From Antitrichia curtipendula (Eukaryota > Streptophyta > Bryopsida > Hypnales > Leucodontaceae), in the NCBI GenBank assembly GCA_951230915.1, contig OX579635.1:6572001-6636000 (forward strand): DNA of 64,000 nt, read 5' to 3'. How positions within the stretch are numbered: position 1 is the first letter of the stretch; every line of letters begins with the position of its first letter. Both the position numbers and the translations under genes were made by a program. Of the stretch, positions 5,581-51,157 are shown one piece after another. The notes under the pieces were generated by a model. That model saw only the letters and a list, made by a program, of their open reading frames with translations. It had not been told where the DNA came from and made no database searches.

Positions 5581-6000
5581 TAAGGTAGTATGCTTATGCT
5601 TTAAAAGCGACCATTTAAGGACTGGTCCGCCTTTTTCATAGGTTTCTCTGGACAGAAATATTTTTAGATCATTTTTCAGAGAAAGAAAAATAGATGTGGA
5701 ACCTAACACAAGTGGTTTTGTATTTTTACAAGTAATTTTGAATTACTTATAAATTTTCAAGGATTTGGGGCATAGGTACCTATTTGTGACGATAAGTCTC
5801 CCCAAATCCGTCCACTTGCAACTTGTAAAGAGATGTGTGGAACTCAAAGACAATGATTGGCTCTTGCAATAGAAAAACAATTTTTCCTCGATGCATTCAA
5901 TTGCTAAAGTAGCCCATTTAAGGATCATCCCATTTCCATTTTCTAGCTAAAAATAGTGTCGATTTGAAGGAGAGGGTCACTTTTAGAGCATACTACCTTA
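5581..6000. mobile_element. MITE, AAGGTAG family, copy 1
   Basis: Non-coding 420-bp element with terminal inverted repeats. The left end TAAGGTAGTATGCT mirrors the right end AGCATACTACCTTA, and the inner match continues with AAAAG.GACC on both sides. Its interior is clearly related to the element at 50743-51157: both have a CCGCCTTTTTCAT/TGCCTTTTTCAT block, a TTTGAATTACTTAT.AATTTTCAA block and ATGATTGGCTCTTGCAATA. The target duplication looks like TA, which would fit Tc1/mariner-type mobilisation, but TTAA cannot be excluded. Confidence 0.78.
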
Positions 6001-15500: not shown

Positions 15501-18500
15501 GGTTCGACCTGATCGCCAAGGCGTTAAAATAGCAGCGATGGGTAAGAAGCTCCATGAGGAAAAAGCAGAGCAGCCAACGCAATCCATAAATCGCAGTGTC
15601 TTTTCTACTGTAAGCTCTCTGAACATTTTCCAGCTGAATAACAGATATAACAGTCAGTCAAAATAAGATCCATTGTGCTTAAAGTTAATCGAAAGGGTAT
15701 TCGCCCTATTTGACGAAAATCCACAGATTGCGAGAACCCTCATTCTTGTGACAATCTGCACATAGATGCAGGGCAACAGACAGGTGACAATCTTACTCAC
15801 GTTGCCATCAAAGTACAGAGATAGGGTGAGGAGAAGACCTGAGAAGCAAATGCGTTAAAGGTGATAATAGGTCCAGCAATATACAAGGGTGCATAAAGGA
15901 GGTATGCCAAGTAAGCGACAAGATTGTACTGAGTCTCTTCAACTGGCTTCTCCTGAAACAAAGGAAATAAAGTTCAGAGAATAACCGATAAATGTATGAA
16001 CATAGTTCCTGATTTAACCGATTTTGCTACAAGTGTCGGCATTTCAGCATTTCTAAAATTATGTACGGCCAGGTTAAACCTCTTGTGTGGGGATCAGAGA
16101 GATGAAAAAACATCTTTTAGCAATTTAGGCTATTACGGGATATTATGCTATCATTGCAGTACAAGTGCCTATCTTTCACGTTTGATAGAAACTCAATTTG
16201 GAGTACACTTTGTCACACACAATAGCATGCCAGAAGAAATCGCTACCCACTTAAGAAAGTCTGATTATGAGAAAGCTTGATTAAAGAAAATAAAACCTAA
16301 TATCGACGGAAAACTGAGAAACTTCCATACAAGATTGACGAGGTATTGTTTAGACCAAAAGATTTCCAACTTACTTGACGAGATAAATAACAAGAATTAC
16401 CCTCAGCTCCAGATGCTCCAAGTGTGCATAGATCACATTTTCGCATATGATTCTGTATTCAGATCGCAAATTGGAAGGTAAAAATTAGTTCAATGCATTA
16501 CAAACATTCATCTCAGAAGCAGCTCCACACAAGTTCCATAAAAGCCGGCTGATGAACACAGATTCACTGCCAAGGATTCGGATAATGAAATCACTTCTAT
16601 GAAAACCAGCAGTTGGGGGAATGTGGCAAGATTTACATATGATCTTCTCTTGGGCATCAATCTTAAGAATGAACTCACCTAAGAAAGACAAATAGAACTA
16701 AGGTGAACATAAGGCGTAAATCGCATTCAATTTCAGGTGACTTTCATGAAGACTAAATCAAGAAAAAAAGGGGCACTGAACCAACCTCCCCAGGTCATGA
16801 ATGAAGGACGAAGAGAGGACGGACCTCCCAGTTGACAGTCGAAGGTCGGGAAATTTGCGCCCAGTGATAGTCAAGGCCGAAACTTAACATTCGCAACATT
16901 ACTGCAAGCACTCAACCCACAATGATGAGATCTAATAAAGTATGCCATTCTCCATTAAGTTGTTGCACCACCAAGAAAATACAGCTCTGGAACAAACAAT
17001 CTTATCCCCTCGAGCACCCATATCCTGAACAGCAAGAACAAGAGATACTCAACCACGGAATGTGCAGACAGCAGGAACAATATCACACCCAAGTTGAAGC
17101 TGATGTGCCACCGCATTTCACCCCGGTATTGATCTAAAAAGGCAAACTGCTCCCTGCAATATCAACTCCTTAGTTTCATTAAATCCGAGAGCGACATGGT
17201 ATGTCCGACGTTTCAAACCATCTGTTAACATCTCAGCATCATGACACCCTTTTCAAGATTTGAGATTCAGAAAATTCCCTACTAAAAGACGTCTTGTTAG
17301 AAAGTTCTCACCCCAAAGATGCAAACTTGTAGCCGTTGTACACACGGTTGCTTATTAGGAACGTGAGGTTGTACATCCAGAGGAGGTAAGGAAATGCATG
17401 TTTTCCTGCACAGGTCTGCTCAAACTTGGAACATGTCAGTTTCATTAGAGACGTAACCGGCATTTCACATGTTAAAACCCGTCAAACTGAGCCTTCTGCT
17501 GTGCACGTGAGATTATAGACCTAAAAAGTTCCAAAACCTCGTACATAGCAGCTTCAATAGTATCTGGTCGAAAAAAAAGATGAAGAAAGTTGAAGGATGG
17601 ATAGTGCAAGCACCTTCGTAAGCACGTAGTTACCAAGAGCAATTGCTAGAATGAAAAGGACGCTGCCAAGTCAAAAAAACAATCAAAAGACATGTCGTAA
17701 GTAACTGAGAACAGATCCCAAATAAGACATGAATTATCAAAATCCACCCATAGCATCAAGTCGAAAATAAACTGGCATCAACTTCAATCAGGAGAGGGAC
17801 CGCAAAGATGCAAAGAGTCTCTTAAGTGTCTTGAGGCAGTTATTGGAAAGGCATAAAGGATTAAAAAAATTCACTCTGTGGATTCTACATCCTACTCTGA
17901 CGCACACATATTATCTTCTTCTATCAACATGCCCATGTCACAGCTGAGAAACTGATGTATTGAAGACCTTGTTCAATCAGAAATGTCTATAAAAACTACT
18001 TCTGACTAAGTACAAAGCATATAAGATGTTGATGAAAGAAAACTAAAGATTCTAATGTCAGTTCTGTAGGAATACAACCAAGAATGGGAGCTCGCATTTA
18101 CCAATTTCCGTGCAAATAGATCACATATATTGATGATGCAAGAAGCCAAAACCTCGCCATACCCCTACCCTTCAAGCCCAGTCCTGCCCTCAGGGCAACT
18201 GCCAGAATCGAGAAGGCAGCCATAACTCCTGTCAAAGCTGGTAAACCAGAACGAAAGTTTCTCCATTGGCTGTCGGAGAGATCCTGACAACAACATCAGA
18301 AAGCTTCGTGAGATATTGGATCGATCATAACAATTCCGAAAACACAACGTCTTAGCACGAACGCGTCTGCCAAAACCTAACGTAAGCGAAGGAGAAACCT
18401 CAAGTCATTGTCAGTAATCATGGAGGGACTCGCAGAGAAACGCATCATACAGAATAACGACAAGATGAATAAGAAGAACTGCACTGGGGCACCTACCATC

Positions 18501-22012: not shown

Positions 22013-22021
22013 GCTTGATAA
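22013..22021. repeat. 9-bp target-site duplication, left
   Basis: GCTTGATAA, identical and in the same orientation as 37560-37568. Nine base pairs is the characteristic duplication of Mutator-superfamily elements. The flanking bases differ on both sides, so the match is exactly nine. Confidence 0.85.
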
Positions 22022-22230
22022 CAACGACGCTAGTTTGTGAGCTTGGAGCCGTGAGCCTGTGAGCGTGGAGCGTGGAGCCTGTGAGCCTAGAGCCTGAAAA
22101 AAAAAAAAAAAAAAAATTTGGGACAAATTTTTTTTTTTTTGGTAGAAAAATTCAGAAAATTGAGTTTTTTCTACTATTAATGGTAAATTTGGGACCTATG
22201 ACCGTATATCCTATGACCGTGGATTGGTAA
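22022..22230. repeat. Left terminal inverted-repeat region of the MULE
   Basis: After the GCTAGTTTGTGAGC end comes a run of GTGAGCC/GTGGAGC words to about 22096, then an A20 and a T12 tract, then two copies of CCTATGACCGT ending at 22225. The GAGCC words and the CCTATGACCGTGGAT motif recur at the other end in inverted orientation. Clustered subterminal words of this kind are typical binding-site arrays for transposases. Confidence 0.7.
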
Positions 22231-23821
22231 ATATTTTATGTGGTATTTGAATTCTTTGTAGTAGAAAAGAATCCTCCACATAGTGAGACTGAGAGTCATT
22301 TCTTATGAAGGTTACGATTTTGAAGAAACCTTGGCTCCAAAAAAATTAGAATAGTGTTGTGGTGACCATGGTGTTGTCACAAAAAATTTAGAAAAATAAA
22401 TGACGGTGTCGTGTTGAGACTGGGAGTCATTTTTCATTGAGTCTAACCTTAAGGATTTAGGGTATGTACGGATTTCAAAGACAAATGAAGAAAGCTCAAA
22501 AACCAATTGAGGCAAAGTCTGTACATGCTTTGTTTATTATTCTATACGTGCTTTATCTACACATGCTTCAGTTAGTATTTTCAACAAAATGACAAAGTAC
22601 TGGTGGGAATATAATTCTCCACATAATGACGGAGAAAGGCTATTCCCCCACACGGTACCTTGTCATGTAAGAGCATCGAGGATGACACCTCTTATAGTGA
22701 CACGTTCTAGAATGCCAATCATTATGGGATATATGAATGAGAAACTTGAAATTTTGGTCTTGTAACTCTTCCTCGGCCTTTTCAGCACTTATCACCACTT
22801 TGCGCTTACATACTAGCATTGTTGGTAAATGAAGCAATAAAACAGGAAAAAGGGATGTAGAAGAATAGGAAAGGAAAAAACAGCAAACAAACGAAATTCT
22901 TCTTATATTCATATGTTGGATGAGAGATCAACATTGTAGTTTTGGGTCATTCATACTTTCTTCTAGATTTCTTTCTATATGCAGTTTTGGGTTGTTGCCA
23001 AAATGAACTATCATTTTAATAGTGATTTTATGATCTGTTGTTATAGCTTCTTAATTATGTCCCATAACATATAACAAAACAATCGTCCATAGAGTTTTGA
23101 TTGAAATTGTATCCTTTCTTTTTAAGAATTTCATAATGTCTTTGTGAATTTGAAAGCCTATATTGTTAATTTGTCACATTTGTAGGTTTTGGATTTTTTA
23201 ATACTATTCAACGAATGACTTTAATGATTTTCATATAAAAAATCATAGCCAACTCCTATAAGTAGTAGAGTCGTTCTTTGCAATGGACATCATGAAATCC
23301 ATAATTTTATGTCCTCCACATTTCTACAAATAGGCAATCTCTAATCCACTTCTAAAAGATAGAGGTTGTTCTCACTTCCATTTTTTGGTTAAATCTTAAT
23401 ACTACGTAGATCTTCCAGAAGCCCTATTTTTTTTAAATTTTAATTCTATATTTCATGTTTCTAAAAAACAAAATCCCTTCAAATGTGTTATGAATCTTTT
23501 GAAGATGAAAAAAGTACAAGCAAATTCTTGGACATCAAATTCTGGTGATATCCTATTAGTTCTGGCAATGATTTTATTTCAGATGGTTGTAAGTGACTAA
23601 AATTTTGGGAAAATGAACTCACATTTCTGAAAAATTAAAATACCTACATCCACAGTCATAGGGTTTTCCACTGAAGGCTCACATCCCTTGGCTCTTAAAA
23701 ACTCCATGTTTGCATAGCGAAACCAATGTCAAGAAATACATCCAATGCTACCTATATAAATATAAAGCTATAATGGACAAAGCGTACATTTGAGTCATAC
23801 TGACATGAAATTTGAATACTA
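22231..23821. other. Internal non-coding DNA of the MULE, left side
   Basis: This AT-rich region lies between the left terminal repeat and the 3' end of the transposase gene. Minus-strand frames of up to 90 codons have no recognisable domains. A degenerate copy of the subterminal motif (CCACAGTCATAGG) occurs at about 23651-23663. Confidence 0.5.
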
Positions 23822-26800
23822 TCAGCTGCGTAAAATCATCCCGGCTCTTTCAAGAATTGTCATTACTTCATCCATGCTCAAGCTTGGTGCATGAATGAAC
23901 TTTTCGGTCTTGTAGTCCGCCTTGCATAGATAACAAAAAATGTAGTACAAGTGCTTGCAGTTTACATACTTTCCTCGTTTCCCAATGGATGCTGATGCCA
24001 TACTACTAAAGTACAAGCAAGTGCAAGATGGAAAATTGCACAACGTTATACGATATACTTTGTGGTCATGTTCTTTACCAAACTGCAAAGTGATGACAGC
24101 TCCAAGGCCTGGATATGGAAGAATGTTCACTCCAAGAATAGTTTCTGTCACATTTCTTGCACTTTCCCATTGGTTACGATGGTCTTCAGTGGGCGCTTTT
24201 TCGTTCCTTCGAATAGACTTCCCATTACGAATGGAGGGAGGTTTATCCGCATGATGCGGCCTTGGATGAGTCCACACTACAACTTCAAATAATTTTGACG
24301 ACGTAAACAACCGCCGCGGAGATATACATAGCCGTTGTTGGAGGTAGAATCCTGCCTCTTCAAACATAATGATCTCATCAGAAGTTAAATTAGTTCCAAC
24401 TGCCACTGACCATACATCTGGTATTTCCAGTCGACTAAGCACATGAGGCCTTTTTGGACCCATCACACAACGCTTAATATCATCTGGATAAAACCAGAAT
24501 CCACCCTTGTACCTTTGAACTCCCGCTTCTGTCCTTTATACATGGGAGCTGCTGTTGCTTTAGAGCCCCTGACTATAAACATCGTGCACTTGACCTTTGT
24601 GGTCAACTGAGTTGCATGGCACTTCCTTCTAGATTTCACAGAAATACGAGCAATGTGTCATTCAGATGTGTCACAATCTGTTTCAAATACATGCTTCACA
24701 TGAGGCATAACGGGGATAGTATTCTGAAAATTTGAATCGGGTGCTTCTGTACACTTGTTCTGAACTCACGGATGTGAAAAATTCACCTTGTCAGGGCGAT
24801 GAAAATCACCTTCAGAACCAATGGGTAGGTCCAATTTTCGCTTTGATGACCCAAAGACTTCTTCTCCTTCCAAGTGGGGGATGCGAGTGCAATATTTTTC
24901 AACACCAGGCATGCTGCACAACACATCTGTGATTTTTTGCCCATCCATGGATGCAACTGCTCTCTTCAGCTTCAAGTCATGACGAGATGGTCCCAATCCA
25001 GATGGACCGCCATTCAAATATACCCGATAATTCGTCATTTGCATGAAAGCACGGACCCAATCATCACATGTAGCAACATACAAGTCCGTGCCACGTTTAC
25101 CAGATGCCTGCAACCACTTGTTGTGCACTGTTTCCGACAAATTACAAGATGGCATATCAACCAATTCTTCCAATGATAGATCCTGCAATATACAATATGT
25201 ATTACATAATAGAATATTGATCGCCGAAAAAAATACTTGAACAAGTTCACCAAAAACACAATACCCAAAAACTTATTAACTTACCATCTCCATAAACCTG
25301 CCCCATTGTCGATATCTGAAGTGCCAGAATGCTAACCACAACTCTAATTCCCTCAAAGATTCCTCTGTTGATGCACCAGAGGAGTACCACCATGCTTTTA
25401 TCTGTAAGTACATATTCTCTGCATCTGCTAGGTTTTTGGCGTCTTTGTAGTCTCTGCAAAGCTTCAGGTGCTGACTTTGGAACTCTCTTCTAATGAGCCT
25501 TTCAGTGTGCTGCTTCAATGACATCGCCCAGTGAAAAAGGCAAGTACGTTCCCGGTCAATCATCTTCACAGTTGCATCACCTGATCCATACACAATGCGA
25601 ACAACATTCCAGTTCGCTTGAGCACTATCCGCCATAAATCCTTTGAAGCTCGGATAAGGTATACCATTCTTCTCCATAACCTTGTTTAGACATTTCCACA
25701 TGATAACTTGACCCTCAGTGTCTTCGGTTTGCATATTGCATACTGCTATTGTTATAACCTTACAGAATATCGAATCATATACATGACATGCAATAGTTGT
25801 CCAATCTTTAACACGCTTAGCGTGATCAAACATGATCCAACAATTTTCGAGATCCCTCCCTGTTTGCATTTGCCTTACCAAGTCAACACCACTTCCAGGA
25901 CCATCAACCAACATCTTGAAAACGTATACTTTTTCTTTTCCCTGTCCTGGAAAAACACTGTCGTGGATAAACTCTATCTTTGCTTGTTTCTTCATTGCCA
26001 AAATACGGTCTATTTCTCCCCCCCCTTGCTCGAGTTCTTGAATGACGCAACAATATTCCGCACATTTGGAGAGCTCAGAACCTGAAATTTGTCCATAACA
26101 TCATCTAACGCCTTCCCCCGCAACATCTCCTTGGGGCCATTACCGTCGTGAACAAGAAACGTGTCTAGAAATTCCTTGCTAGCAGCCAAAGCTATGGCGG
26201 ATACTTTTGCAGTAGGGGTCTTCTCCACTTCACGGGCAATGAGAGCTGTTATGGTAGTCAAAGAATCCCTACACAAACCATCTTCTACATGATGCTTGTG
26301 ATGGCCAAGATGAATGCAAGCCCTTCCGGCATCCGGTCCACTAAAAACATAATAAATCCTTCCGTCACAAAAGTCTACACAAGTAGGACTTCTCTTACAG
26401 ACCTTGCAAGCTAAGGACGAATCTTTTGGAGGAATGTCTCCAACATTGAAAGGAGAAATGGTATTACCAGACCACTCAGACTCGTTCCTCTTGAAGCATC
26501 TTTTCAAATAGTCGCATTCATTGTTCATACATGTCAAATGTCCAACACAACTGGACTTCCTGAACTTTAGATCTAAGTCGTTGTGAATGTTCGAGGTTAT
26601 TGTACGACACCATGTATGACCATCGTATCGTTTGTCCATTCCAGTCATATTCTTAGAAGATCCTAAAGAAGTAGATGACCGACAAGGTGGTAACTCAAAT
26701 AAAATGTCACCATCAAAATGAGATGGAAGAAATTGGACCTTCTCGTACTTAATAGACTCAAAGTCTATATGCGCTACTGCATTTCTACACCCTTTGACAC

Positions 26801-27442
26801 TTGATAACTTCTTCAGACTATGTACTATACTTGGAAATTGACGGTCTTGTGGATACAATGGAGGGCGTGACAAGGAAGAACTACTCGGACTACAATGAGG
26901 GGCAAAGGTAGATTGCGGAGTGCTTGCACTCGTTGACGCATGCACCATGATGGGAGTTTGCGTTGAAAAGCAACCTTCTGCAACCGCTTCTCCCTCTGAG
27001 TCGCTAGATAACTCCACTACTAGACTTAAGTTTTTTTTTTAGATGCACATACATTGTGACAACCTTCCAAATCCTTTGATACCGAAGGACTACTAGGTTC
27101 AATTTTAAAATCTCTAAGAGATGAAAATTGAGCAGCATAAGCAACAGATTGTGGTGTCAATATTTCAGTTGATCCTGCCATGTGATCTACAGACAAACCA
27201 AAAGCCCTATAACGACCCTTAGGTAGAATCCAGTAATGACTATTTGCACTTCTAGTCCTGTTCATCAACACTGATTCCACCAGAGTTCCACTTTCAGACA
27301 TAACTTCCTCTTCAACATAAATGGAGGAAGGGATTAAGCCGTATCGGACATGAAGTAGATGCACAGAAAGTTCTGCAATACCATCTGCATTCAGATGTAG
27401 ACGAAGGGGCGCCTTATGACCATCTGCTCGGACAGAGGCCAT
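23822..27442 (-). pseudogene. MULE transposase (DDE core, SWIM zinc finger), disrupted
   Basis: Transposase of the Mutator superfamily. From the ATG at 27442: an N-terminal region; a Cys/His-rich zinc-binding segment (C..H..C....C near 26540, then CKVC and HLGHHKH near 26300-26400); the RNase-H-like core with MFDHAKRVKDW (first Asp), FMADSAQANW (second Asp) and the MULE C..H pair in TCLFHW; then a C-terminal SWIM finger (CTC...CKH, about 23940-24040). One GT-AG intron is at 25183-25284. Disruptions: a frame change at a T10 run (27031-27040), another at a C8 run (26018-26025), TGA codons at 24766-24768 and 24658-24660, and a frame change near 24505-24530. The reading frame otherwise continues through these breaks, so decay is recent. 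Roughly 1,150 codons in total. Confidence 0.87.
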
Positions 27443-30137
27443 TCTCGAGGACTAAGAGAAATTTCAGACGCCAAAGCATATGTGTGGGTAACTGAATTAC
27501 AAAGAGAAACATAGAAGAAGACGAAGATGACAAAACTGTAGTTGAAGAGAAGAAGTGCACGGTCATATATTGAGTGAGGTTCAAAATCCATTGAATTAAA
27601 GAATATGCTATTTTCAAACGAACTATATCTATACGTAAAGCCACATTAAGCAGTAGACGTCCACAACCTCCAATACTGACACAATATAAATAGTTTGATT
27701 TCAGAAAATCCAGGATGGAGTAAACACTGACACATAATTCTGTCTTCACTAATGTAGTGTACCTACAATATAATATTATCCCAGTTAGTAATCACGAAAA
27801 TCTTTACACCGCAGACATAATGAAGACCATAATCTCGGAGAGGTCACTCTGCCATAAGTAGAAAACCACGTGAGTTAAACTATAGGGTGAGTTTTATTCA
27901 TTGGAGCAAAAATTTATAAATGATGTAGATCTATTTTAGGCTGGATTTAAATCATGAAACATCAATATATCTGAAATAGGGTATGGAATAATCATCTGAT
28001 TAAAAAACAAAGTAGATATAAATTAGTGTGAATAAAATCATACAAGAAACGATTTTAATATTAGGATGAGTATAATCCTTAGTCCATGTAATGGATGAAT
28101 GAAATTTTTTATGCTTTAACTATTGAATGCTTTATAGAAGAAGATGTGTAAAATATGAATCATCGAAGATGCTTTTTAACTGCATATAATGATGGCCAAC
28201 TTCATTCTTCAAAGCATCACTTCAAGTGCAACTTCATTTAAATATTTCATAAAATAGAAAAAGCATATCAAAAAAAAAGTTGACCACATTCTAGTCATTC
28301 ACAAAGTTAAGGGTTAAGTTTGATCCTAATTTTTTATGTATGTTGCATATTTTTATGCCCAACATTCATCCAAAAATCTTTCATTATCAAACAAAACAAA
28401 AATTCGTAAAGCTAATAAATATTATAGCGTGCCGAAAATTAAGTTAGATTTTCATTTATAATTACCTAGTGTATTTAAAATAAAGACCAAGTAGCTTTTT
28501 CCGACTAAAAAGGGTCCTTTGAAATCATGATTACTAAGTAAATAGCCTCCAAACTAATAGGTGGTTACCGCACATGGTTACAAAACATAAGGCGAAGTGA
28601 CCTCCCTGAGACCATAAGATACTAGTACCTTCTATTTACAAACATTCACGCATCAAAAAATGAAAATGGTAGTTACTGGAAGCAACTTAGTAACTATAGT
28701 TTTATTCTATTTAAAAATAGAATCAAGCAATGCACAATAAAATAAACAGTAGTTGTACCGCTTGCCCCTATGGCACGTGAATGTATCATTTTTAGTTCTT
28801 TGTAATATTCAAATTCAATCAAAATGCATATGGAAGAATGGCAATCTAGGACATATGAACATATGAACCTATGTCAAACAACTCCAGGCAGTTCACAAAG
28901 CTCTGTATACATTAAAATTTGGATTTCAACACTTGGAAACTATACATGTCAAAAAGGACGGCTATTTGCAGAAAATTCCAATAGAAGGAGAAAATAAAAT
29001 GAAGGCTAAAACACCGGAGTCTATTCCGGGTAAAATGCTTCAAATCTAGTTCGATGAATGCTTAGCTGAGATGTCGGTACCTTGTGATCAAAAATATAAT
29101 AATGGCAAACAAGATCTACAAGTTCGGTGTGAATGAGTGACTGCGCAACGACTATAGTGACTGTGCCATGCATTGAACTCTTCTAGATAGAGGCTATTTG
29201 GTGGGGTCAAGAACACAATAGTGTTATAGTAAAAGTTCGGTACCTTTATTACGGGCAGAATAAAGATTTACCGTCACAATGTAACTGTTCATATACTTGG
29301 CTAGACTTCCCCTCATAGCCGAACTTGAGAATCAATAACCTCTTGAATAGACTCATAATTCGACCATAAACGGTTGTATATAAAGTAATAAATGGCTGCC
29401 CATGCACACCGTCATCCATCATGTGGTTGCAATGTTGGTGGCAGTGGTATCAAATCTAGCTTTACTTAGAAAAATGACGGCTAGTTTTCAAAATATATAC
29501 AAACAATGATTGTGAAAACCTCTGTATGAAAGGAATAGTTTCAGCAATAGAGCATTTAGCATTCTCTAACTTTATTAACAATCACGATAGGCATTATTTG
29601 TCTTGTAGCCTAAGTTAGTTCATGAATCCTTATCTGACACATAAATTTGCCCTAATCATATCATTGGAGGGAATTCAAAACATTTGAAACACGACATCCG
29701 AAACTCTGATTAAATCCAAAGTACCAAGTGCTTGGAAGTCATTTGGTATAGTGAACTCACAATCTTTGCCTTTGTATACGAATGGACTTAGCTTATTCTT
29801 TGTTCTTAGAAGTTCAGTTCCCTCTCCTGTCGACGTTTACTAGGAGAAGACCAAAATATTATGTTACCAGACAATCAATTGATAAAAATAGATTCTCTTT
29901 GAGAATTCAAATCTAGTAACTAAACTTCGAAGCAAACGGAATTATGGGCGTCTTTTGTCGAAAGAGTTGAATTTGTCCCAAACATTTATGTAGCTACTTT
30001 GATAGAATAATCCCGGTTGGCGTAATACTACCTTTACAATTAGAAAAGAGCCAAAACCTCTAGTCCCATCCCTTAATGAAAACCATATAAATGTGTGATC
30101 AGTCCATTGTTAACCCACCATCTTAGGCCCCATCCAC
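27443..30137. other. Intergenic spacer between the divergent MULE genes
   Basis: About 2.7 kb of AT-rich DNA with no frame showing a domain or consistent codon bias. It must contain the transposase promoter (near 27450-27750). I see no terminal repeats, tRNA or structural RNA signature here. Confidence 0.5.
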
Positions 30138-30520
30138 TAAGATAGGAGGCTCTGAAATAGAGCGGGCATTATGAGTGGACCCTCTATATGGATGAAAAAT
30201 GGACATGAGTTGGTTCTGAAATTTGCATGTACAGTCACTGAATGAAACAAAGGAATACCTATTATTAGATATAGGAGCCAATTATATGCTTTGTTTCCCA
30301 ATCTTTCTGAAGAACTGCTAGTGAAACTTTTATAGAAGCCGTGCGGGGGTAAATGGGGCCTATGATCCAACCCGAATGAAAATTCATAAGTATTTAAAAA
30401 ATACTCTGAAAAATCTAAAACCATTTGGGTTATTTTCCTCATCTATATATCCTTGTCTAAAAACTGAACTCTGATTATTCACGTCTAATGAAATACTTGA
30501 AAAGGACCGACCGGATTTTG
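30138..30520. mobile_element. MITE, AAGGTAG family, truncated copy nested in the MULE
   Basis: The left end TAAGATAGGAGGCTCTGA and the next bases AGAGCGGGCAT match the right end of the element at 50743-51157 read on the minus strand. Later blocks GAGCCAATTATATGCTTTGT, GAAAATTCATAAGTATT and TTGAAAAGGACCGACC follow that copy in order. The distal inverted repeat is missing, so this copy is truncated. It ends about 320 bp before the start codon of the ParB/methyltransferase gene. Confidence 0.65.
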
Positions 30521-30840
30521 GATATGCCATTCGTGATCCTCCAACCTTCTTGATAATCAACTTTGACTGAATTTGGCGGTCTGACAAATCAGGGGCTCCG
30601 TCACCGCAACTGGTCCCTGGACTTGCGAGCCGCATTGTAGGACCCCACCTGGAAACGGCGGCCCGCCCTTCCAGCCGCAACGTCGTTGAACCAAGCAATT
30701 CTGATCTGCAGCTCGTGGCTAGTTGCGGTCCCAAGAATGGCATTTATCTCTTGTCACGCAAAGTACTGCTAGAGGTATACCAAATCATTCTCTTCACTAA
30801 ATTTTGAGGATTCCCGGTTGTTCAAAATCTTCATATCGGC

Positions 30841-33800
30841 ATGGCGACAAGGTCGCAGGCCCGTCGCGGGAAGCAGACAAGCGTGGAGGTTCCCCGCGAT
30901 AGCAATGCTCAGGTATGTGATTTCGAACTTATGCTCTATTGACATTCCGCTTTTGGTTTAGAGTGTAAGGGCGGTTTAGCACCTGCAAGAACCGGGATTC
31001 GGAGTATTTTTCGATTGCAGATTTTTTGAGCAAGGTCCCCTCCACTGCGAGAGTGCTCGGTGGCTGCTGACCTAGTGCAGATCCTCGTTGCGTTCATCAT
31101 CCTTGGTTAGCTGCGTGCGCATGCGGTTGCGATCCCAGAAGTGGAAGGCCATCGCGAACGTCTCAGTGGCGAGAGACCATCTGCCAGGGGCGGGAGTCGC
31201 GATTCATTCATGGTTACATTTTTTTTTTGGATATCGGTTGAGTTCCAGTCCACGCCGAGCTTGCTCGGTGGCTGCAAACTAGTGCCTCACTGCCAGGGCT
31301 CACGATATAGAGATCTCATCATCCTCGTTTAGCTGCGAGCGCATGAAGTTGCGATCCCGGAAGTGGAAGGCCACTCCGAGCGTCTCGGTGGCGAGAGACC
31401 ATCTGCCAGGGGCGGGAGTCGCGATACATTCATGGTTATTATTTTTTTTCCGATAACGGTTGAGTTCCTGTCCATAGCGAGCTTGCTCGGTGTGACTGCC
31501 GAACTAGTGCCTCACTGCCAGGACTCACGATATAGAGATCTCATCAGCTTTGGTTGCTGCGCGCGCATGCGGTTGCAATCCCGGAAGTGGAAGGCCACTC
31601 CGACCGTCTCGGTGGCAAGAGACCATCTGCCAGGGGCGGGAGTCGCGATACATTCATGGATATTATTTTTTTTTGGATATCGGTTGAGTTCCAGTCCACA
31701 GCGAGCTTGCTCGGTGGCTGCAAACTAGTGCCTCACTGCCAAGGCTCACGATATAGAGATCTCATCATCCTCGGTTAGCTGCACGCGCATGCGTTTGTTA
31801 TTCAATCATTCAATCATGCGTTCTGTTCATAGCAGAAGTGTGTGCAGGTAATGATTTAGTATGCTTTATCCAAAAACGAATTCGCGAGGACTTAATTAGG
31901 TTTTGGTGTCTAGTTATTATGTTTCATTTGATTCTCGTCCAGTTATATTAACTATTTTAGTTGTTTTGGTTTCCTAGACATCAGATGTGTGTTGTTGATT
32001 TCTCACATTACTGTATGACATAGTTACCACGGATTGCTTATCATTTCTTGAGCATTTGAGTACTTGATATATTATATACTCGAATAGATAAACATTAAAT
32101 TCAGTATTTTGCATCTGTGAAACTCATGCTCACAACTAATCCAGAAATATTGTGTTCATTATCATTGACATCTTTAACTTATACTTCTGTATTTGTCCCG
32201 ACCCCATGAACCCTTATTAGGTCTCTCGATGGCGAGTGGTATTGTGCTGGAAAGAACTTTGGAATGATATTGCATTTTTGGGTTAGCAGTAGATTCAAAG
32301 TTGTTCCTTTTCAGTTAACTATTAAAATCCTTTTCCAAAATGATAACATTAAAAGGCTACATTTGATTCAAAAGTTTCTGTTTCAAAAGTTCCAATGCTA
32401 GTTGAACTATTTACGTTTGAAATAAAATTGAGATTCAGTATTCCTAATGTGACATTATTGAACTAATAATGCTATATTACAATATAGTTTTATTCTTATG
32501 GGATTCATTTGTATTTCATTTGACTTCTGACCACTTTCTGTATGTAATTTATTTTTTGGAATTTCGTGCATTTCAGGCACCTTTAATACATGAGCATTTA
32601 GAGATGGGCCCAGATACTGATGACATTATGGAAATGGCTCCGCAATCGGGATTGGTAAGTCTAGTGGCATCCCTAGAAGAACTTAATTTAAAATGGATTC
32701 CATCAATTTCATCTTAATATTGTATACCATTTGGTTGTGGAAAATGGGTCTTGGAGATCTCATTCATTTGACTTGTCATTGTCTTGGTCGATGATGCCTA
32801 TTTATTTTTAAAGAGACATATCTCATTGTGTAATTGGTAATTTGATATTTCATTTCATTCTTCTTTTATGTAAACATGTAAAGTGTCTAAATTGTTTGAA
32901 CTGGCTATTTACTTCAGGATCAACCTAACATACTTGGAGTCAGTTCTGCAACAAAATCATTGTCTCCTATGTAGTCGGAGGACAATTCGTAGCCTGGTAT
33001 TCACTATGAAGAAGATGTGGACGGTATTATGTCTGAGGGCAATGACGAAGGTGGTGATGAATTATTGGAAGATGACATACGGAAGACTCAGAAATTGGAC
33101 TTCGTGTCAACCATTTCAAGTTTATGGCTGCAACCAATTTCCCTATCTCAGACTAAAATCCCCTTGTGCAGATTGGTGCCAATGCCAATGGTAAGACCAA
33201 CTTTGACATGTGATTTAACAAAATTAGAACAAGAATTTGTCCATGGCTATGATGAAGGAGCACGAGTGTTCTACGTCTCAATTTTGGATGAACAAGGGGA
33301 GTCAGGCGTTTTCACTGAGTCAGAGAAGGCAGAGTGGGGACCTCTGTGGAACTTAGTGAACAACTCCTTTAATATAGAACTCAATGCTCAAGCAAAGTTG
33401 AGCCATTTAGTGGACAAGAAGTTCTATGTTTGTGATGGAAATCATCGCCGACTCGCTTGGATGAACCACATTAACCGACTTCACAACAAAGAACTGATCT
33501 GGCATATTTCAGTTGACACAATCATTCTGGATACAAGAGGTCGAATAGGGCTTGCCATGCAGTTGATGCATGACATAAACAAGTAAGTGACCTACCTAGT
33601 TCTGGTGGTATTATTTGCATATGCATATCTTCAATGTGATTTTTAGTATCTGTATTTTTTATATTGACAAATTTGAGTTCAAATTCCTTTTGCATAGGCA
33701 GACTGAGAACAGCCATGTGAAAACAAATTTGGTTCACACGCTTTATCGAGTTCAGAAGTATGGCTCTATGCCAGTCGATAAGTTTAACGAACTGCTAAGC

Positions 33801-36800
33801 CCAGAAGATGTCAAGACTTGTCAGCAGAGCACACATAAGACATGGTATTCCATGCCGCTTGAAGTGTTCACATCCTTCATTTTCCAGGTAAGTAACAATT
33901 TCTGTTTCTCACTTGGTTTTGGGGACAAATGTTATTTAGCTTAATTCTCATTCTTTGAATAAAGCTACTCTAACTGTTATAATTACTAATTGTCGTTTTG
34001 CAGCAAGAGATTGCTGAAGCTGTTGATGTTGCTGTGAGAAAGTATCATGAGGAAACCTCTTCTGAGGATGTTACAAATGTTGGGGTGGCAGCCGCTATGA
34101 GATCAAGTTCGAAAGAGGCAACTAATAAATTGTACAAGAAACTGTCCAAAATTGTAGCTGTTGCAAATCCTGCTTTAGGTCCTGAATGGCTTCAAGAGGT
34201 ACAAATTTCACTTTTTCTACTTGATGCATTTAGTGGTTCGGTGTCGTCGTATATCTAAAGGTGCTTATGTTTTGATTTCACAGATTGAAAGGCATTGGAG
34301 TTTGTATGCGGTACAGGAACTCACCTTGGACAAGTTGCAATTAATTGCAACCTCAAATGTCTAGCCCAGCCACAAGGTGAAGTGGTTGAAGTGGTTGAAT
34401 GCCTCAGGTCCAACTCGTGAGGCTCGCCGTTTTCCTCCTCGACCAATGAACGACGAGAAGCTCAATGCTTTCCTTTCAAAAGCCTGTTGGTTTGCAGGGG
34501 TAACAGTTCGTAGTCTTTCTTGACGTAATTTTGTTTTAAACTAATTCAACTCTTCTTCATATTGCAAATTATCATGTTACTATATCATGTCCATCGCTAA
34601 TTTGTGTCTTTTGTTTCCATATAGATTGAAGATGCTGCGCTAGAGATGTTTGAAAATATCACGAAATCTGACAGCATCCCTATCAACATGGAAGTGGTGG
34701 ATGAGCCACAATCACTGGCCGACTATTTGGAGAGCTGGCGAATGAAATTGTGGGAGAACGCTTATGTTGGGGTCTTTAAGGGAACTGACGCATTTAAGAA
34801 GTCTAATTCTTTTAAATAATTCAAGGGATCCAATCTCGCTGTAAAGCAGGTCATTTATCGGTAGCCGTTTGAATTTGCTAATTGCTGGTGTTCTTTATTT
34901 TATGAAAATGTATTAGTACATTATGAAAAACTATGCTAATTATATGTTTGTGGTCCACAGATATTTCAAATTTGAGTTATATGCGAAGAAAGCTATTGCC
35001 AAAACAGATTTGCCTCCCTTCCTACACACTTGGTTGGATAGGTCTTCTCCGGATTGTATGTTCTCCCCTTCACAATTGAAGAACTGGACTAGTGTCCACC
35101 TTCAAGCCAGTCCATGGTATTTGGAGTGCAGTCAAGGTTTTGCTGCTCCTGAGGAGCAAGCCCTTCTCCAATCTCTAAATGATAGTGCTATTGTTGAGCC
35201 CGAGTTTGATGAGTTTGCCGGGTTGGATGTTGAAGCAAAAGCCAAAGCTTTCAAGAGAAGAGAGATATCAGATAAGAGGAAAGTTGAGAAACAAGAGATA
35301 GCAAAGAAGAAGGCCGAAGAAAACCAAGAGAAGAAGAAACATGAACGTGAAAGAAAAGCACTAGAAAAAGGCAAGGGTAAGAAGAGAAGGGCAGATGCAC
35401 CAATTGGTGAACAAGCAACTAGCGAGGCAGGCATGAAGGATATATCATCCAGTTTCTCACTAACACAAGAACGACTGCTCCATGGCTTACCAGCTAGAGC
35501 TTTGGATTTGACCTTGATGCCTTCCATTGATGAGCTCATCCTAAACGTGTCTATGACTGATTTATTAGGTGCAGATGAGGGCTCTTTCCCTGAATCATAC
35601 AACAAAGTCATGAAATTTTTAGAAACGGTATGCTTTACTTTTTTCCTCTCCTTGTGCTTTCTTCATGTGCTTTCTTCATGTGCCATACAGTTATTTATAT
35701 TTGGCTTGACAATTTCTAACAAGAATATTTGCACACAGCATTCTTCCGACAAGGATCGTTATTTCAAGGGAGTTTTATGCAAAGATGAGGCAGTGGATTT
35801 GATGATTGTAGATGTTCCAGAGGGATTGTCGGTTCCTACAGTATCTAGTCCACCTGATTCCATTCCTGAATGGAACAAATACTCGATCAATAGATTGGTT
35901 ACAACCCATCTTCGACTTTGCAGAGACCTATCTACACGATGGTGGTGGGTTACTTGTAATGTACCCGTTCTGTCGTGGAATGAAGTCCGACCTTCTTGGC
36001 TATATGGGACAGTATGTATTTCAGTCAAAAAAAGATTGGTGGGGCATGAACAGACTTCATCTGACATCGCCACTGGACCCTTCATCTACAGTAAGAGTCT
36101 ATTATTTAGATTTTTTAGTTGTATCAACATTTCATTTCATTTTTTGTAATGAATTCTAACTTACTAAAGTTTGCAGACTATGCGATTTTCAATTTCTCTA
36201 TATGTAAAATCGGGACTGCCTTCTTCAACACTTTTTTTCCGACCTATTCCAGCTCACGAAGCAGTTGGGGTGAATGTTGGTCGAGATGACATCCTTCAAA
36301 ACTTTTGTAGCAAGGATGATGTTACAATGCATGGCATTATTCCTTAGCGAGGACCCCGTGAGAAGGCTCGCCCGTTCATGCAAATGCTCATTGAGGCTAC
36401 TACTTTGCCTGGTGATGTGGTAATGGATTTCACCACAGCGACAGGTTTGTCCCTCTGTTATATGTTTTCACATGGGAGTGATTTCTGTTGTCCTTTAACT
36501 GCACCTGAAATTCTAAAATTATATTTGTTTGTTTTTGTAGGCTCCAGTATCTATGCTTGCCGGGCTACCGGTTGCCATATTGTTGCATTGGAAGAAGACT
36601 CGTCTCTATTTGACGTCGTACTTGCACCTCTTGTTCGCATCGTGGCATTGGATGGAACACCACAACAAGCACGAAGTATCCCTGTTGTTGATTTGGACGA
36701 CGAGGAAGTGGTTCCCCGAAAAATCGTGAAGAAGTCCAAATTCAGTAAGTAAGTGAACCATTCAATTTTGTCAAGTTAATCAAAATTCTACATACATTGC

Positions 36801-37119
36801 TTGGAACTCATATGTATCGGGTTTTTTTTGTAGGCAAGCTGAAGAGATGAAGAAATCGAAACATCAACCGTTCTTTGTTGATCCAGCTTTCTTCCGAAGT
36901 CCTCCAAAATCATTTCAACTCCCGGTCTATGCGGAGGCAATTGCTAAACAGTTTGAGACCTATGACCCTAGACAGACTTCTAAGGCCCACCTCATTGATC
37001 CTCGCGTTCTTCGATTCATAGATGACTCTACGATAGAGTCACATGACGAGAATTTGGTCAGTGATTGTAGTTCAGCATCCGGATCTTCTACCACTGTTCT
37101 TTCAGAAGATGAACTTTGA
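30841..37119 (+). pseudogene. ParB-like domain / beta-class DNA methyltransferase-like fusion gene of the MULE, disrupted
   Basis: Twelve exons: 30841-30912, 32577-32654, 32918-33582, 33698-33887, 34004-34198, 34284-34499, 34625-34860, 34961-35627, 35739-36090, 36177-36444, 36541-36748, 36834-37119 (about 1,144 codons). Phases agree throughout except exon 9, which has one base too many (frame change near 35880-35905). Domains in order: basic N-terminus (MATRSQARRGK), acidic linker, ParB-like domain with FYVCDGNHRRLAW (exon 3), helical segment, Lys/Glu-rich coiled coil ending GKGKKRR (exon 8), a methyltransferase motif IV-like strand DLMIVDVPEG (exon 9), ETYLHDGGGLLVMY, and a C-terminal motif I-like GDVVMDFTTATG with HIVALEED (exons 10-11). 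Motif order IV then I fits beta-class N4/N6 enzymes. In-frame stops: TAG at 32972, 32990, 34362, 36345; TAA at 34817. The product, if intact copies exist, would probably bind and perhaps modify DNA; the domain calls are from pattern recognition. Confidence 0.78.
31107..31774. repeat. Three GC-rich tandem repeats of about 222 bp
   Basis: Units 31107-31328, 31329-31553 and 31554-31774 are about 90% alike. Each contains AGTGGAAGGCCA, GAGAGACCATCTGCCAGGGG, CGGGAGTCGCGAT, a T-rich tract, GAGCTTGCTCGGTG and CACGATATAGAGATCTCATC. A partial degenerate unit precedes the array (about 31020-31106) and the first bases of a fourth follow it. The array lies in the first intron of the ParB/methyltransferase gene and is much richer in G+C and CpG than its surroundings. 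Frames of 60-120 codons inside it are a by-product of the repeat. Confidence 0.9.
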
Positions 37120-37417
37120 TCCCTAAACCTATAAGCCTATATATATTTTATTCTCAATATTTATATAATATGGTTTTCTTATCTATATATCTATTTCAAG
37201 TAGTCTACATCTATAATTTAGTCTATTTTTATTTCCTAAACCGCTAAACTGAATTTTAATATTATTAATAGCACAATCTTCTTAATGATTAGAAACAAAA
37301 TTTAATGTTTGCATGTCTTCCTAATGATTCAAGTTTTATATTGTTGAATCCTCAATAATATAAGTTTGCCAATTTTAATGTCAATCCTAAATCAATGAAG
37401 AGCGTTTTCTTTTTTAT

Positions 37418-37441
37418 ACCCTAAACCCTAGACCCTAATCC
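37418..37441. repeat. Short telomere-like tract
   Basis: The tract contains CCCTAAACCCTAGACCCTAA, which is two plant telomere units and one variant. It lies just inside the right terminal region of the MULE. It is too short to be a telomere; similar short interstitial tracts are common near plant promoters. Confidence 0.6.
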
Positions 37442-37559
37442 TTATCCACGGTCATAGGTCCAGTCGACCTAAAACCCAAAAATAACAACATAAATTCTAC
37501 ACTCTTAGGCTCTCCGGCTCCCGGGCTCATGCTCCCAGGCTCACAAAATAGCACCCCCG
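37440..37559. repeat. Right terminal inverted-repeat region of the MULE
   Basis: Read on the minus strand from 37559 inward: an end with GCTATTTTGTGAGC, GAGC-type words to about 37505, then CCTATGACCGTGGAT at 37459-37445. These follow the same order as the left end. The spacing between the word tract and the motif is shorter than on the left, because the left side carries long A and T tracts. Confidence 0.7.
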
Positions 37560-37568
37560 GCTTGATAA
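37560..37568. repeat. 9-bp target-site duplication, right
   Basis: GCTTGATAA, the direct copy of 22013-22021. The two copies define the insertion boundaries of the 15.5-kb element. Confidence 0.85.
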
Positions 37569-39405: not shown

Positions 39406-40419
39406 TTAAACAAGTTCCAATTTTTCCCTAATTATTTACAAAACCGTCATGCCCGGGTGCCATCTCATCCAGGAGCTTCGTTCACAAGTCAAGCCCTGCG
39501 CTGCTTTTGATTCCTTTCTCTTCGCTTCGCTTTCTGCTCCGCCATCGACCCAATTCTCTCCCCAACCCTATTCCTGAGCTCTCTCGCTATCACTCTCAGG
39601 CTCTTTGTCATTTCGATTCCTTTGCTTCCCGAAGAGGTAGGCTTCTTCAGTACCGTTCTGGATTGTTGTAGTCAGAAGCGCTTTGGATTTTCTTTGGAAG
39701 ACCAATGCAACCTTGTCAAGGAGGTCGTGCATTCATGGCTAATGAAATTCAGGGTTCAGGGTTCAGGGTTTTGGGTTTAGTTTTTGTTGCTTGCGCTGAC
39801 TGTGAGATTCCATTTGTGAAGCATTCATGCTATTTGGGGACATAAAATTGTAGCAATTATACGAACGTATGGTTTTACGGCCTTGCCAATCACCGCACAG
39901 ACAAAATTCAAATGCTTTGACATTTGGTGTGATTATTAAATGTCATGTTACGATTCACCTTAAAAAACACAGAATGCAGAAAGGTTTCTCCGTACAAATT
40001 TTATTGCAATTTCAAGGCAATGAGGTTGAAATCTCATTAGAAATTCATTACAGCCCTTTACCGCAGTGTTCAGTCACTCTGTGATGACACAAAATTCTGA
40101 TCCCATCACGTCCCATTTCGTTCCTATCATGTTCCATTTTGTTCACATCAGTCAGTCCTTTCAAAACCGTGATTCCCTTTTCTCGTTCACTGACAATTGG
40201 CTTCTGTTTCGGAAGCAGGAAGAACTTGCTGCCTGCGCTGGGCGTAATTCTTGTGGCTTTGGTCGATTTGGGAGGGAGTGGGGGTTTGGGAGCGCAATTG
40301 GTGAGTAAAACTGGCTGGGGTTTAGGAGGTTTGGGAGTTTGAGAGTCTTCTTTTACGGTTTCGTGAGTTGGAGCTCATTTCTGTGAAAGTGCGGTGCAGC
40401 TTTGGAGGGCATCTCAGAC
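39406..40419. promoter_or_regulatory. Leader region of the F-box gene
   Basis: The GC-rich, pyrimidine-rich stretch at about 39450-39650 looks like a transcription start region and first untranslated exon (possible donor GAGGTAGGC at about 39634). The segment 39882-40080 is a dispersed repeat shared with 7855-8075. The bases GTGCGGTGCAG ending at about 40399 would serve as an acceptor just before the coding exon. There is no coding frame upstream that I would support. Confidence 0.45.
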
Positions 40420-41814
40420 ATGGACATTCCAGGCAGAAAGAAAACCAAGGTTGGCACGTGTATCAGAGATGAGAAGCCAAGCCTTGTTCGAGTGGCATGT
40501 GCCTTGAGAGGAATGCTGGATGACGTGATTCAAGGTGTTGGAGAATCTCCAGGCATACAAAACTTACTTGAGTATGCAGCACAAAACATGTTCACAGACG
40601 GTGTCTCATCTCAAGAGCGTGGCATTGAACGGAAGGTTGTACAAACAGAAGAGAGTGTCACCACCTGCGCTCATTCTTGTGCACATCATGCAAAGTTGAT
40701 GGACATTGCTCTCTGGAGCGGACTCCCTGAGGAGCTACAGGAGCTCGTCTTCGCGTGCTTACCGTGGCCTCAAATCTACCGAGTCCGAATTTTGTCCAAG
40801 GGGTGGAACCAGAAGCTGATGAGTGGTGGCAAGGATTCGCAGTTGAAGTGGGCTTGTGCCAGAGCTCAACCCAAGTCGTTTGGCCTTCTTGCATCGGGAT
40901 GCTGCCCAGGTTCGTTCAAAGTGAACATGTTTGACATCGCATCTAACAGATGGCATACGTTTGAAACCTCACCGGGGTATGATCCCAAGCGTGGTGAAAT
41001 CGAATTCGAATTGAATGCGAATGATGGAGGGTTGGTGTGCTTGTTGTCGAAAGTTCCATCCAAGTGCAAGAAGACCTCTTGTCTTGTCTTTGTTTGCAAC
41101 CCATTAACTCGGGTGTGGAAACAGCTTCCTCCCCTCTGTGGCATACTTCAGCAAAAGATCGTGCAACTGATCATGGACCGAGAGACAAAGCATTACAGAG
41201 TGATTGTTGTGAGCTATTGCAAAGACCCCAAAGTGGGGAATTTGGTCAATGTATACCATTCAGAGACCGGGCAGTGGAACAAAGCCGCTGGCTCCTCTTC
41301 CGGAGAAGTGGTTTATGGCTACTTTTACAACAACGATTCAGAATGGTCCGAATGTTGCTACAATTTTGCTGATGGACTGGTGCATGAGAGTGTTACCGAT
41401 TTTCCTGGAAACTATGCTCACGACTCGGTTCTTGTGAAAGACCACTTATTTCGTCTGAAGGACATGGGACCAGCAGGTGGGCTCCCGACGTACTGCATTG
41501 AGGAATATCAAGCCGTGCATTGTGGAGCCAGTTGGACCCTTTTGAAAGAGTATCCCTTTAATCGTCTTCCAAGGACTCCTCAACACATCCAGCCTCATGA
41601 TAGTATGAGCTGGTTCTCGCATTTTTTTGCATGTAAGGATTTTCTTCTGCTCTCTGTGTTCCTCGAATGGGGGGAGGAGAATCACCGTCAGTTTTTATGG
41701 CTTTACGAGTTCTCTGTAGAGGAATGGCGTGAACTTCCGGTGATGCCTGGAGGCAATCATTTGTTTCTTAATCAGCAGCAGATGTGTGAGCTTCGTTTCG
41801 ATTCTGTTCCATGA
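40420..41814 (+). CDS. F-box protein with kelch/galactose-oxidase-like C-terminal region, single coding exon
   Basis: Substrate-recognition subunit of an SCF ubiquitin ligase by family. The open frame extends 18 bases upstream of the ATG at 40420, giving a 464-residue product. The F-box is at about residues 99-134 (WSGLPEELQELVFACLPWP...RILSKGW). The downstream region has repeated FDIASNRWHTF, NPLTRVWKQLPP, HSETGQWNKA and FSVEEWRELPVMPGG strands, the usual pattern of F-box-associated kelch-like blades. The N-terminal 95 residues are unassigned. Codon use is even and G+C is well above the flanks, supporting a real gene. The substrate cannot be predicted. Single-coding-exon structure is common in this family. 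Confidence 0.9.
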   Translation: MDIPGRKKTKVGTCIRDEKPSLVRVACALRGMLDDVIQGVGESPGIQNLLEYAAQNMFTDGVSSQERGIERKVVQTEESVTTCAHSCAHHAKLMDIALWSGLPEELQELVFACLPWPQIYRVRILSKGWNQKLMSGGKDSQLKWACARAQPKSFGLLASGCCPGSFKVNMFDIASNRWHTFETSPGYDPKRGEIEFELNANDGGLVCLLSKVPSKCKKTSCLVFVCNPLTRVWKQLPPLCGILQQKIVQLIMDRETKHYRVIVVSYCKDPKVGNLVNVYHSETGQWNKAAGSSSGEVVYGYFYNNDSEWSECCYNFADGLVHESVTDFPGNYAHDSVLVKDHLFRLKDMGPAGGLPTYCIEEYQAVHCGASWTLLKEYPFNRLPRTPQHIQPHDSMSWFSHFFACKDFLLLSVFLEWGEENHRQFLWLYEFSVEEWRELPVMPGGNHLFLNQQQMCELRFDSVP

Positions 41815-50742: not shown

Positions 50743-51157
50743 TAAGGTAGGAGGCTCTGAAAGCGAGCATCTAAGGGCTGGTCTGCCTTTTTCATGTGGT
50801 TTCTTGGATGGGATTATTTTTAGCTCATTTTTCAGACAAAGAAAATTAGATTTTGATTGTAACACATGTTGTTTTGTATTTTTTGAAGCATTTTTGAATT
50901 ACTTATGAATTTTCAAACGTGATGAGTTGTAGGTCCCTATTTATGACCCTAGGTTTTCATAAACCGTTCACATGCAGTTTCTAGAGAGAAATGGGGAAAA
51001 CAAAGAGAATGATTGGCTCTTGCAATAAATAATATTTTTTTTACCGATCCATTCAATGACTATAGAAGGTCCATTTAAAGACCACCTTACATCCATTTCA
51101 TGTGAGTCTATATGGATAGTTCTAAATGCCCGCTCGCTTTCAGAGCCTCCTACCTTA
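50743..51157. mobile_element. MITE, AAGGTAG family, copy 2 (best preserved)
   Basis: Near-perfect termini: TAAGGTAGGAGGCTCTGAAA at 50743 and its mirror TTTCAGAGCCTCCTACCTTA ending at 51157, with inner AGCGAGC/GCTCGCT. Flanked by GC on the left and CA on the right, so a TA duplication is the simplest reading. It lies about 400 bp downstream of the pentapeptide gene, and a plus-strand frame in its left half is an artefact. Related copies are at 5581-6000 and 30138-30520. Confidence 0.85.

Follow-up and report, generated by a model that had tools for sequence, protein, structure and literature searches.

A two-gene MULE-like transposon family in the moss Antitrichia curtipendula with a ParB/methyltransferase-like partner gene and a conserved palindrome in a variable tandem array

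Accessory genes that combine a ParB-like domain with a DNA methyltransferase are already known from algae, in transposons belonging to other superfamilies, and it is suggested that such a protein binds and modifies its own element (PMC12477816). Among the closest known systems are transposons of green and red algae and, described together with them, Sola1-1_Ec32 of Ectocarpus, a large DNA transposon in which the gene with the ParB-like and N4/N6 methyltransferase parts, encoding 1104 amino acids, lies on the strand opposite to the transposase (PMC12477816). Here we describe a comparable element in a 64,000-nucleotide stretch of Antitrichia curtipendula DNA (contig C3, positions 6572001-6636000; hereafter the window), in which a transposase-like gene is accompanied by a ParB/methyltransferase-like partner gene encoding a protein of about 1,100 amino acids. 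Sola1-1_Ec32 belongs to the Sola superfamily, whereas the present element makes target duplications of 9-10 bp and resides in a plant genome. The reading that we favour, with a probability of roughly 0.6, is that of a two-gene transposon whose partner protein binds palindromes in its own element and thereby counters silencing and/or autoregulates the element.

The bacterial ParB-parS system combines a DGxHR-type motif with clustered palindromic sites beside the gene; the present family differs from it in the weakness of the ParB homology, in that no partner ATPase is seen, and in being a eukaryotic transposon. Giant EnSpm elements with accessory genes are mentioned for red algae, and the available account of the algal elements holds nothing on a palindrome array, such as the one found here (PMC12477816). 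The VANDAL elements of Arabidopsis resemble the present family in encoding an accessory protein, VANC, and in having degenerated inverted repeats, and their non-coding tandem repeats carry a short VANC-bound motif, motif-bearing tandem repeats being found in the moss elements as well (PMC5735166, PMC10398659). The VANC21 motif, YAGTATTAY, is however not an inverted repeat of the kind described below, and the VANC6 motif differs, whereas the present palindrome is the same across the subfamilies read; binding and anti-silencing have been shown for VANC, whereas for the present partner we infer them (PMC5735166, PMC10398659). A bacterial-type N4-methylcytosine system is also present in a eukaryote in the case of the bdelloid rotifer methyltransferase, with the difference that the mark is presented there as an epigenetic mark of host DNA, while the gene considered here is borne by a transposon (PMC8885841).

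Boundaries, mobility and copies of the element

The copy in the window (W) is one mobile unit at 22022-37559, enclosed by exact 9-bp target duplications, GCTTGATAA, at 22013-22021 and 37560-37568, the boundaries of which were set by alignment to a second copy, copy A, on contig C7. The sequence GCTTGATAA occurs only twice in the whole window, which taken alone is unremarkable, two or more occurrences being reached in 26 of 100 shuffles. The decisive evidence comes from copy A, which aligns to W over 22022-31797, 31094-37247 and 37240-37559 at 95-98% identity (about 95% overall), starting exactly at 22022 and ending exactly at 37559, and which is bracketed on each side by its own duplication, AGGACCATT, differing from that of W. 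A chance 9-bp duplication was rejected because copy A ends at the same bases and has its own duplication, and two separate insertions were rejected on the same alignment. It is thus shown that the whole unit moves together, making new 9-10 bp duplications, and the element that had been proposed from the window sequence, with exact 9-bp repeats, inverted termini and a shared subterminal motif around two divergent multi-exon genes, is confirmed, the genes being a transposase-like one on the minus strand and a ParB/methyltransferase-like one on the plus strand.

Copy A differs from W by one additional array unit and by a nested insertion of 0.7 kb. The latter, located near the right end of copy A (about 17260-17985 of the joined piece; window 37240-37247), is a small non-autonomous transposon, with inverted ends of the GGGTGAATGCAAGAAACAC type and a short duplication resembling CTAA.

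The left terminus of W (22022-22096, plus strand) contains short TGTGAGCC/GGAGCC repeats and is imperfectly inverted relative to the right terminus (37506-37559, minus strand), with 27 of 40 end bases matching and arms that are 77-78% complementary. A motif search located two tandem subterminal motifs, CCTATGACCGTATAT and CCTATGACCGTGGAT, at 22195-22224 (plus strand). The 15-mer CCTATGACCGTGGAT recurs exactly at 37444-37458 (minus strand), inverted with respect to the copy at 22210 (plus strand), and with one mismatch at 23648-23662 (minus strand); allowing up to 3 mismatches, the window holds 8 matches to it, against 0.83 expected. The 13-base core of the right subterminal motif is exact in copies A and B and has one base changed in copy C; it was not found in copies D, F or G.

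A search of the 400,189,583-base assembly (303 contigs) with the partner gene gave 201 matches, corresponding among the matches listed to at least 37 separate loci, the window included, a count that is a lower bound because 43 of 4085 first-look candidates were scored. An ordinary single-copy host gene, the outcome that the original prediction had named as contrary to it, is rejected by this number of loci. The partner gene is multi-copy and falls into at least three subfamilies, probably four.

The ends were sought in 11 copies, namely W, A, B, C, D, two more of subfamily 3 and four more of subfamily 2. Both ends together with direct repeats were found in 8 of these, with eight different 9- or 10-bp duplications (GCTTGATAA, AGGACCATT, ACCTCAACTT, TGCCGTGCTG, GTCCAATACG, CTTATTGCTC, GCGTGAGAT and CACTAAAAC). 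The duplication is 9 bp in W, A, D and E2 (subfamilies 1 and 3) and 10 bp in four subfamily-2 copies, which suggests a transposase-dependent spacing of the cuts. In the two subfamily-3 copies the right end was set at an identical base, following CATTCCCC, which in D lies one base before the alignment stop. The incomplete copies are B, which is without a left end, C6:13609427, the left piece of which is interrupted, and C9:14181752, where the left end falls outside the fetched piece. All of the 11 copies except B contain transposase sequence, six of these ten as pieces only, since the left part alone was fetched. The expectation of a single element that holds both genes and makes a new duplication is supported at each insertion read, and the partner is accompanied by the transposase in diverged subfamilies as well.

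The transposase (minus strand) and the partner gene (plus strand) lie head to head in W, A, C and D, so that these four copies have the algal-type layout, with a ParB/methyltransferase gene opposite the transposase and within the element ends, the ParB part being weakly supported. Exon by exon, copy C (subfamily 2, contig C4) shows 69-83% identity in the transposase and 48-77% in the partner, and copy D (subfamily 3, contig C3) 45-58% and 39-75%, respectively; both genes are thus more diverged in D than in C. Copy B retains the right half and the right end. At locus F, the right end (16742 of the joined piece) directly abuts a second fragment of a partner/methyltransferase gene, as though an element had inserted into, or right next to, the partner gene of a relative; no matching duplication was found around this junction in the fetched piece. 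In another joined piece (L061+L062), transposase sequence on the minus strand, from 14854 and 12609, has open frames of 735 and 485 amino acids, from which it follows that better preserved relatives exist.

The tandem array and its palindrome

All seven copies that were read on the 5' side of the partner gene have a tandem array there. In the window it occupies 31094-31797, within the proposed intron 1 of the partner gene, and consists of a 222-bp unit repeated 3.2 times; the corresponding values are 224 bp and 4.1 in A, 235 bp and 6.1 in B, 382 bp and 4.9 in C, 255 bp and 3.5 in D, 224 bp and 11.6 in F, and 224 bp and 4.8 in G. No 9-mer is common to the arrays of all four of W, B, C and D; nonetheless, each of these arrays contains the palindrome TCTCG-N4-CGAGA, and in C, as in parts of F and G, a single unit holds two of them. 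The comparison shows that the sequence of the array varies by subfamily while the palindrome stays. The one exact site in the window, TCTCGGTGGCGAGA, is at 31383-31396, and sites with one changed base are found in the first and third array units, at 31161-31174 and 31607-31620, respectively.

The exact palindrome was found in all 19 loci retrieved with the ParB exon, at 88 sites that are always 5' of the gene, the first-order Markov expectation being 0.06 and the largest number in 100 draws 1; these sites are not independent events, because the tandem units are copies of one another and the loci are related. The ParB-exon locus of the window itself is outside the 19 and starts downstream of the window's exact site. 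No site was found in 10 loci retrieved with the coil exon (36.8 kb) or in 8 unrelated loci (24 kb). When one mismatch was allowed, 21 array regions, with three places identical to A, B and C left out, yielded 137 sites, 113 of them distinct. The columns of the palindrome core have values of 0.88-1.0, most flanking columns 0.3-0.55, and the core is followed by G at 0.89 and A at 0.69. As the sites were picked by their core, part of the conservation seen in it follows from the selection itself, and the unconserved flanks are the informative half of this comparison.

The whole genome contains 2871 TCTCG-N4-CGAGA sites, against 1006 for a reversed control. The sites located among the matches listed, which extend from the start of contig C1 to 8.60 Mb, include four clusters, two of which are known partner loci. 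The other two, F and G, are absent from the partner matches listed, and both adjoin partner genes (2 of 2, as predicted), which represent a further subfamily. At one partner locus, C1:7041988, the matches listed include neither a ParB exon nor a palindrome site. Site clusters may be a cheap finder of copies, even of those too diverged for a protein search. The tandem array, absent from the original prediction, is probably the most informative part of the element.

The two genes and their decay

The partner gene (30841-37119, plus strand, with an approximate start) comprises about 12 exons by GT-AG reading. A first exon, MATRSQARRGKQ..., is proposed at 30841-30912 (plus strand) and is conserved in copy A; in B, C, D, F and G no counterpart was recognized from the sequence. 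Further downstream on the same strand are a DGNHR motif of a ParB/DndB-like domain at 33434-33448 (phrog_1033, E-value 0.0071; the motif reads DSNHR in D), an exon at 34957-35629 with a lysine/glutamate-rich, coiled-coil-like stretch recognized by eye, the equivalent of methyltransferase motif IV, DVPEG, placed by eye at 35811-35825 and invariant in four of four aligned members, and the equivalent of motif I, DFTTAT, at 36427-36444, the next residue of which, G, is finished in the following exon. The order of the motifs, IV ahead of I, is that of a permuted (beta-type) enzyme. Around motif I, PF01555 matches all four members (best E-value 1.4e-6; the sole bit score shown, 22.9, is below the cut-off of 26.7), as do five PHROG methyltransferase families (2e-8), and the partner profile matches DpnA at 0.0012, all of these matches covering the motif I part. 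The assignment of the C-terminal domain as a permuted N4/N6 DNA-methyltransferase fold of bacterial or phage type is thus supported at the level of profile comparison.

With regard to the origin of this domain, a tblastn search of phages gave 65 records at E-values up to 1, of which six cover at least 80% of the query at 20.7-24.3% identity; the best E-value among the matches listed is 5e-6, over a quarter of the query. Viral-contig scans with three pieces returned no relative. When prokaryote genomes were scanned with the methyltransferase alignment, using two peptide patterns only, 99 pattern matches were obtained, of which tblastn identified none as a relative, so that no donor is visible. 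Of the bacterial or phage origin suggested in the original prediction, the type of fold is therefore retained, and no close relative was found in viral contigs, phages or prokaryotes at the sensitivity used. In the moss genome itself, a PF01555 search gave 2 weak matches, none over the cut-off; this search was exon-wise and also missed known transposon copies, its sensitivity being therefore low.

The transposase-like gene (23825-27442, minus strand) is broken in W and has relatives in copies A, C and D. Its core exon part (25285-26019, minus strand) contains DDE-like residues in the stretches MFDH, MADSAQA, CLFHW and LELWL, and a SWIM-like CxCx(n)CxH zinc finger pattern is found near the C-terminus (23951-24025, minus strand) in three of three aligned members. 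The blocks MFDH, MADxAQA, CLFHW and LELWL are common to the three members, in all of which D340, D406, C435..H438 and E501 are conserved, a set compatible with a D-D-(C..H)-E site. Transposases of Mutator-like elements (MULEs) have DDE-type residues with C..H ahead of the E, the SWIM zinc finger is common in MULEs without being universal, and their target duplications are 8-11 bp long, typically 9. No match to the MULE profile PF10551 was obtained within E-value limits of 5 (read-through) and 1 (the three members), no SWIM or other Pfam profile matched above chance level, no meaningful PDB match was found, and single-sequence structure predictions are weak, with a mean predicted local distance difference test (pLDDT) score of 45 (transposase, AlphaFold2) and 31. 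Of the MULE transposase originally proposed, we thus retain a MULE-like enzyme, as suggested by the duplication length, the DDE-like residues and the SWIM-like finger, and not by a profile match. The missing Pfam and PDB matches would also fit an element from another DDE superfamily that makes 9-10 bp duplications; we consider this unlikely, in view of the duplications themselves, the C..H that follows the second D and precedes the E, the SWIM-like finger and the degenerate inverted ends.

W belongs to a family of DNA transposons with two genes, both of which are broken in this decayed copy. Its partner gene has five premature stops in the counted codons and one frame-shifting insertion, and its transposase three reading-frame changes and two stops, the first of these frame changes being present also in copy A. 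The partner gene has one stop in copy A; in copy B there is no stop in the counted codons and a small insertion in another exon; the partner matches in copy C contain one stop and one frame change. The ratio of nonsynonymous to synonymous substitution rates (dN/dS) of the partner is 0.27 between A and B, 0.36 between W and B and 0.44 between W and A, with significant differences for A-B (Fisher p 3e-13) and W-B, which shows that purifying selection has acted on the partner gene. Among the 95 substitutions private to W, 64 are C>T or G>A, distributed over CG (21/455), CHG (20/451) and CHH (23/2157) contexts, which makes CG and CHG about four times denser than CHH; copy A shows the same tendency, with 16 CG, 21 CHG and 27 CHH among 138 private changes. 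Such a pattern would be expected if the host had methylated W at CG and CHG.

Short stretches of the window at 30136-30505, 50743-51157 and 5612-5888 match pieces of other copies and of their flanks at about 66-85% and represent a dispersed repeat found in and outside the element. The neighbouring host genes include an F-box/At3g26010-like propeller protein (40387-41814, plus strand) and a CAAD-domain protein (55750-56385, plus strand), both with Pfam matches below the cut-off.

Possible role of the partner protein

We propose that the partner protein, in which a weak ParB/DndB-like module would be joined through a basic linker to a permuted methyltransferase fold, binds, probably as a dimer, to the palindromes in its own element. 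A palindrome suits a dimeric DNA-binding protein, and the presence of the array ahead of the partner gene even where no transposase is nearby (B and F) favours the partner as the binder. The bound protein would then methylate nearby bases, or would merely occupy or organize the palindromes through its methyltransferase-like domain, with the outcome that the array and the adjoining promoters may be kept from host silencing and/or that the element may be autoregulated, while the termini and subterminal motifs would be the sites at which the transposase works. A more specific proposal, which we hold tentatively, is that of a self-addressed epigenetic system, whose parS-like centre would be an evolving array of constant palindromes at which the partner loads and marks or shields the element.

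Several observations weigh against a DNA-binding and DNA-modifying partner in an intact two-gene unit. The usual catalytic motif IV of N4/N6 methyltransferases is [DNS]PP[YFW] (DPPY/NPPY), whereas the present proteins have DVPEG in all four aligned members and at locus G, and DVSEG in F; motif I reads D[FC]T[TA][AS]TG, and together these changes imply that the methylating activity may be lost or changed. The ParB/DGNHR assignment is weak: phrog_1033 is matched in three of four members, with a best E-value of 0.018 (0.007-0.045 over all tests), DndB in one of four at 0.0084, and no meaningful PDB match was obtained for the ParB-like part. All of W, A, B and C carry lesions, and stops are found in the transposase matches of D. 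No recognizable transposase was found within 20 kb at locus B or within 18 kb at locus F, and at G the transposase and partner pieces share one strand and are separated by the array; positions 10525-10558 of the 17-kb joined piece of G resemble a left end, which suggests that this locus is perhaps two overlapping partial elements. Single or paired exact palindromes also occur away from any known copy, and the binder of the palindrome could be the transposase or a host factor.

This last point leads to the alternative that the array is a transposase binding site, or a promoter/enhancer array for host factors, with the partner acting elsewhere. Transposases can have internal sites, and an array between divergent genes could be used by either product; transposase sites are however expected near the ends, and the ends of this element hold repeats different from the array, which in turn is some 3.6 kb away from the start of the transposase but adjoins the partner gene or lies in its first intron, and accompanies the partner in the 20 kb (B) and 18 kb (F) fetched there without a transposase. 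We therefore regard this alternative as rather improbable. It is a good deal easier to imagine, if still somewhat short of an even chance, that the partner does not methylate DNA at all and, as a methyltransferase-like protein devoid of catalysis, binds DNA or provides a scaffold, its role being VANC-like anti-silencing or help in excision or regulation. The invariance of DVPEG in the four aligned members, unlike DPPY/NPPY, suggests a function that is kept but different, whereas the surroundings of motif I still match active methylases and an N4/N6 methyltransferase function has been predicted for the related proteins of algae (PMC12477816). Finally, the capture of genes by MULEs is known from Pack-MULEs (PMC12477816), and the partner could be a host or bacterial gene picked up in this way with no role in transposition. 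We find this very hard to reconcile with the presence of the partner in at least three subfamilies, its dN/dS of 0.27, the unchanged place that it occupies in W, A, C and D with the array alongside, and the lack of any host gene over the PF01555 cut-off in the exon-wise, low-sensitivity search of the genome.

In the open PMC literature we found no report of a ParB-methyltransferase in MULEs or of a palindrome array, which is a weak negative. The original remark that a described plant MULE with this cargo is not known holds to that extent, with the reservation that the type of cargo had already been reported in algal transposons (PMC12477816). New, as far as searched, are the MULE-like, 9-10 bp-duplicating element in a plant host, the joint retention of partner and transposase over several subfamilies, a motif IV that departs from the usual form, and the array of palindromes ahead of the partner.

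The present analysis extends this type of accessory gene to a MULE-like element in a plant genome. The palindrome array provides a candidate cis-site ahead of the partner gene, the missing half of the idea that such a protein binds its own element, which thereby becomes directly testable. If the proposal is true, the moss family would represent a second counterpart of VANC, one that was put together independently and in which the pairing of protein and site is conserved across diverged subfamilies.

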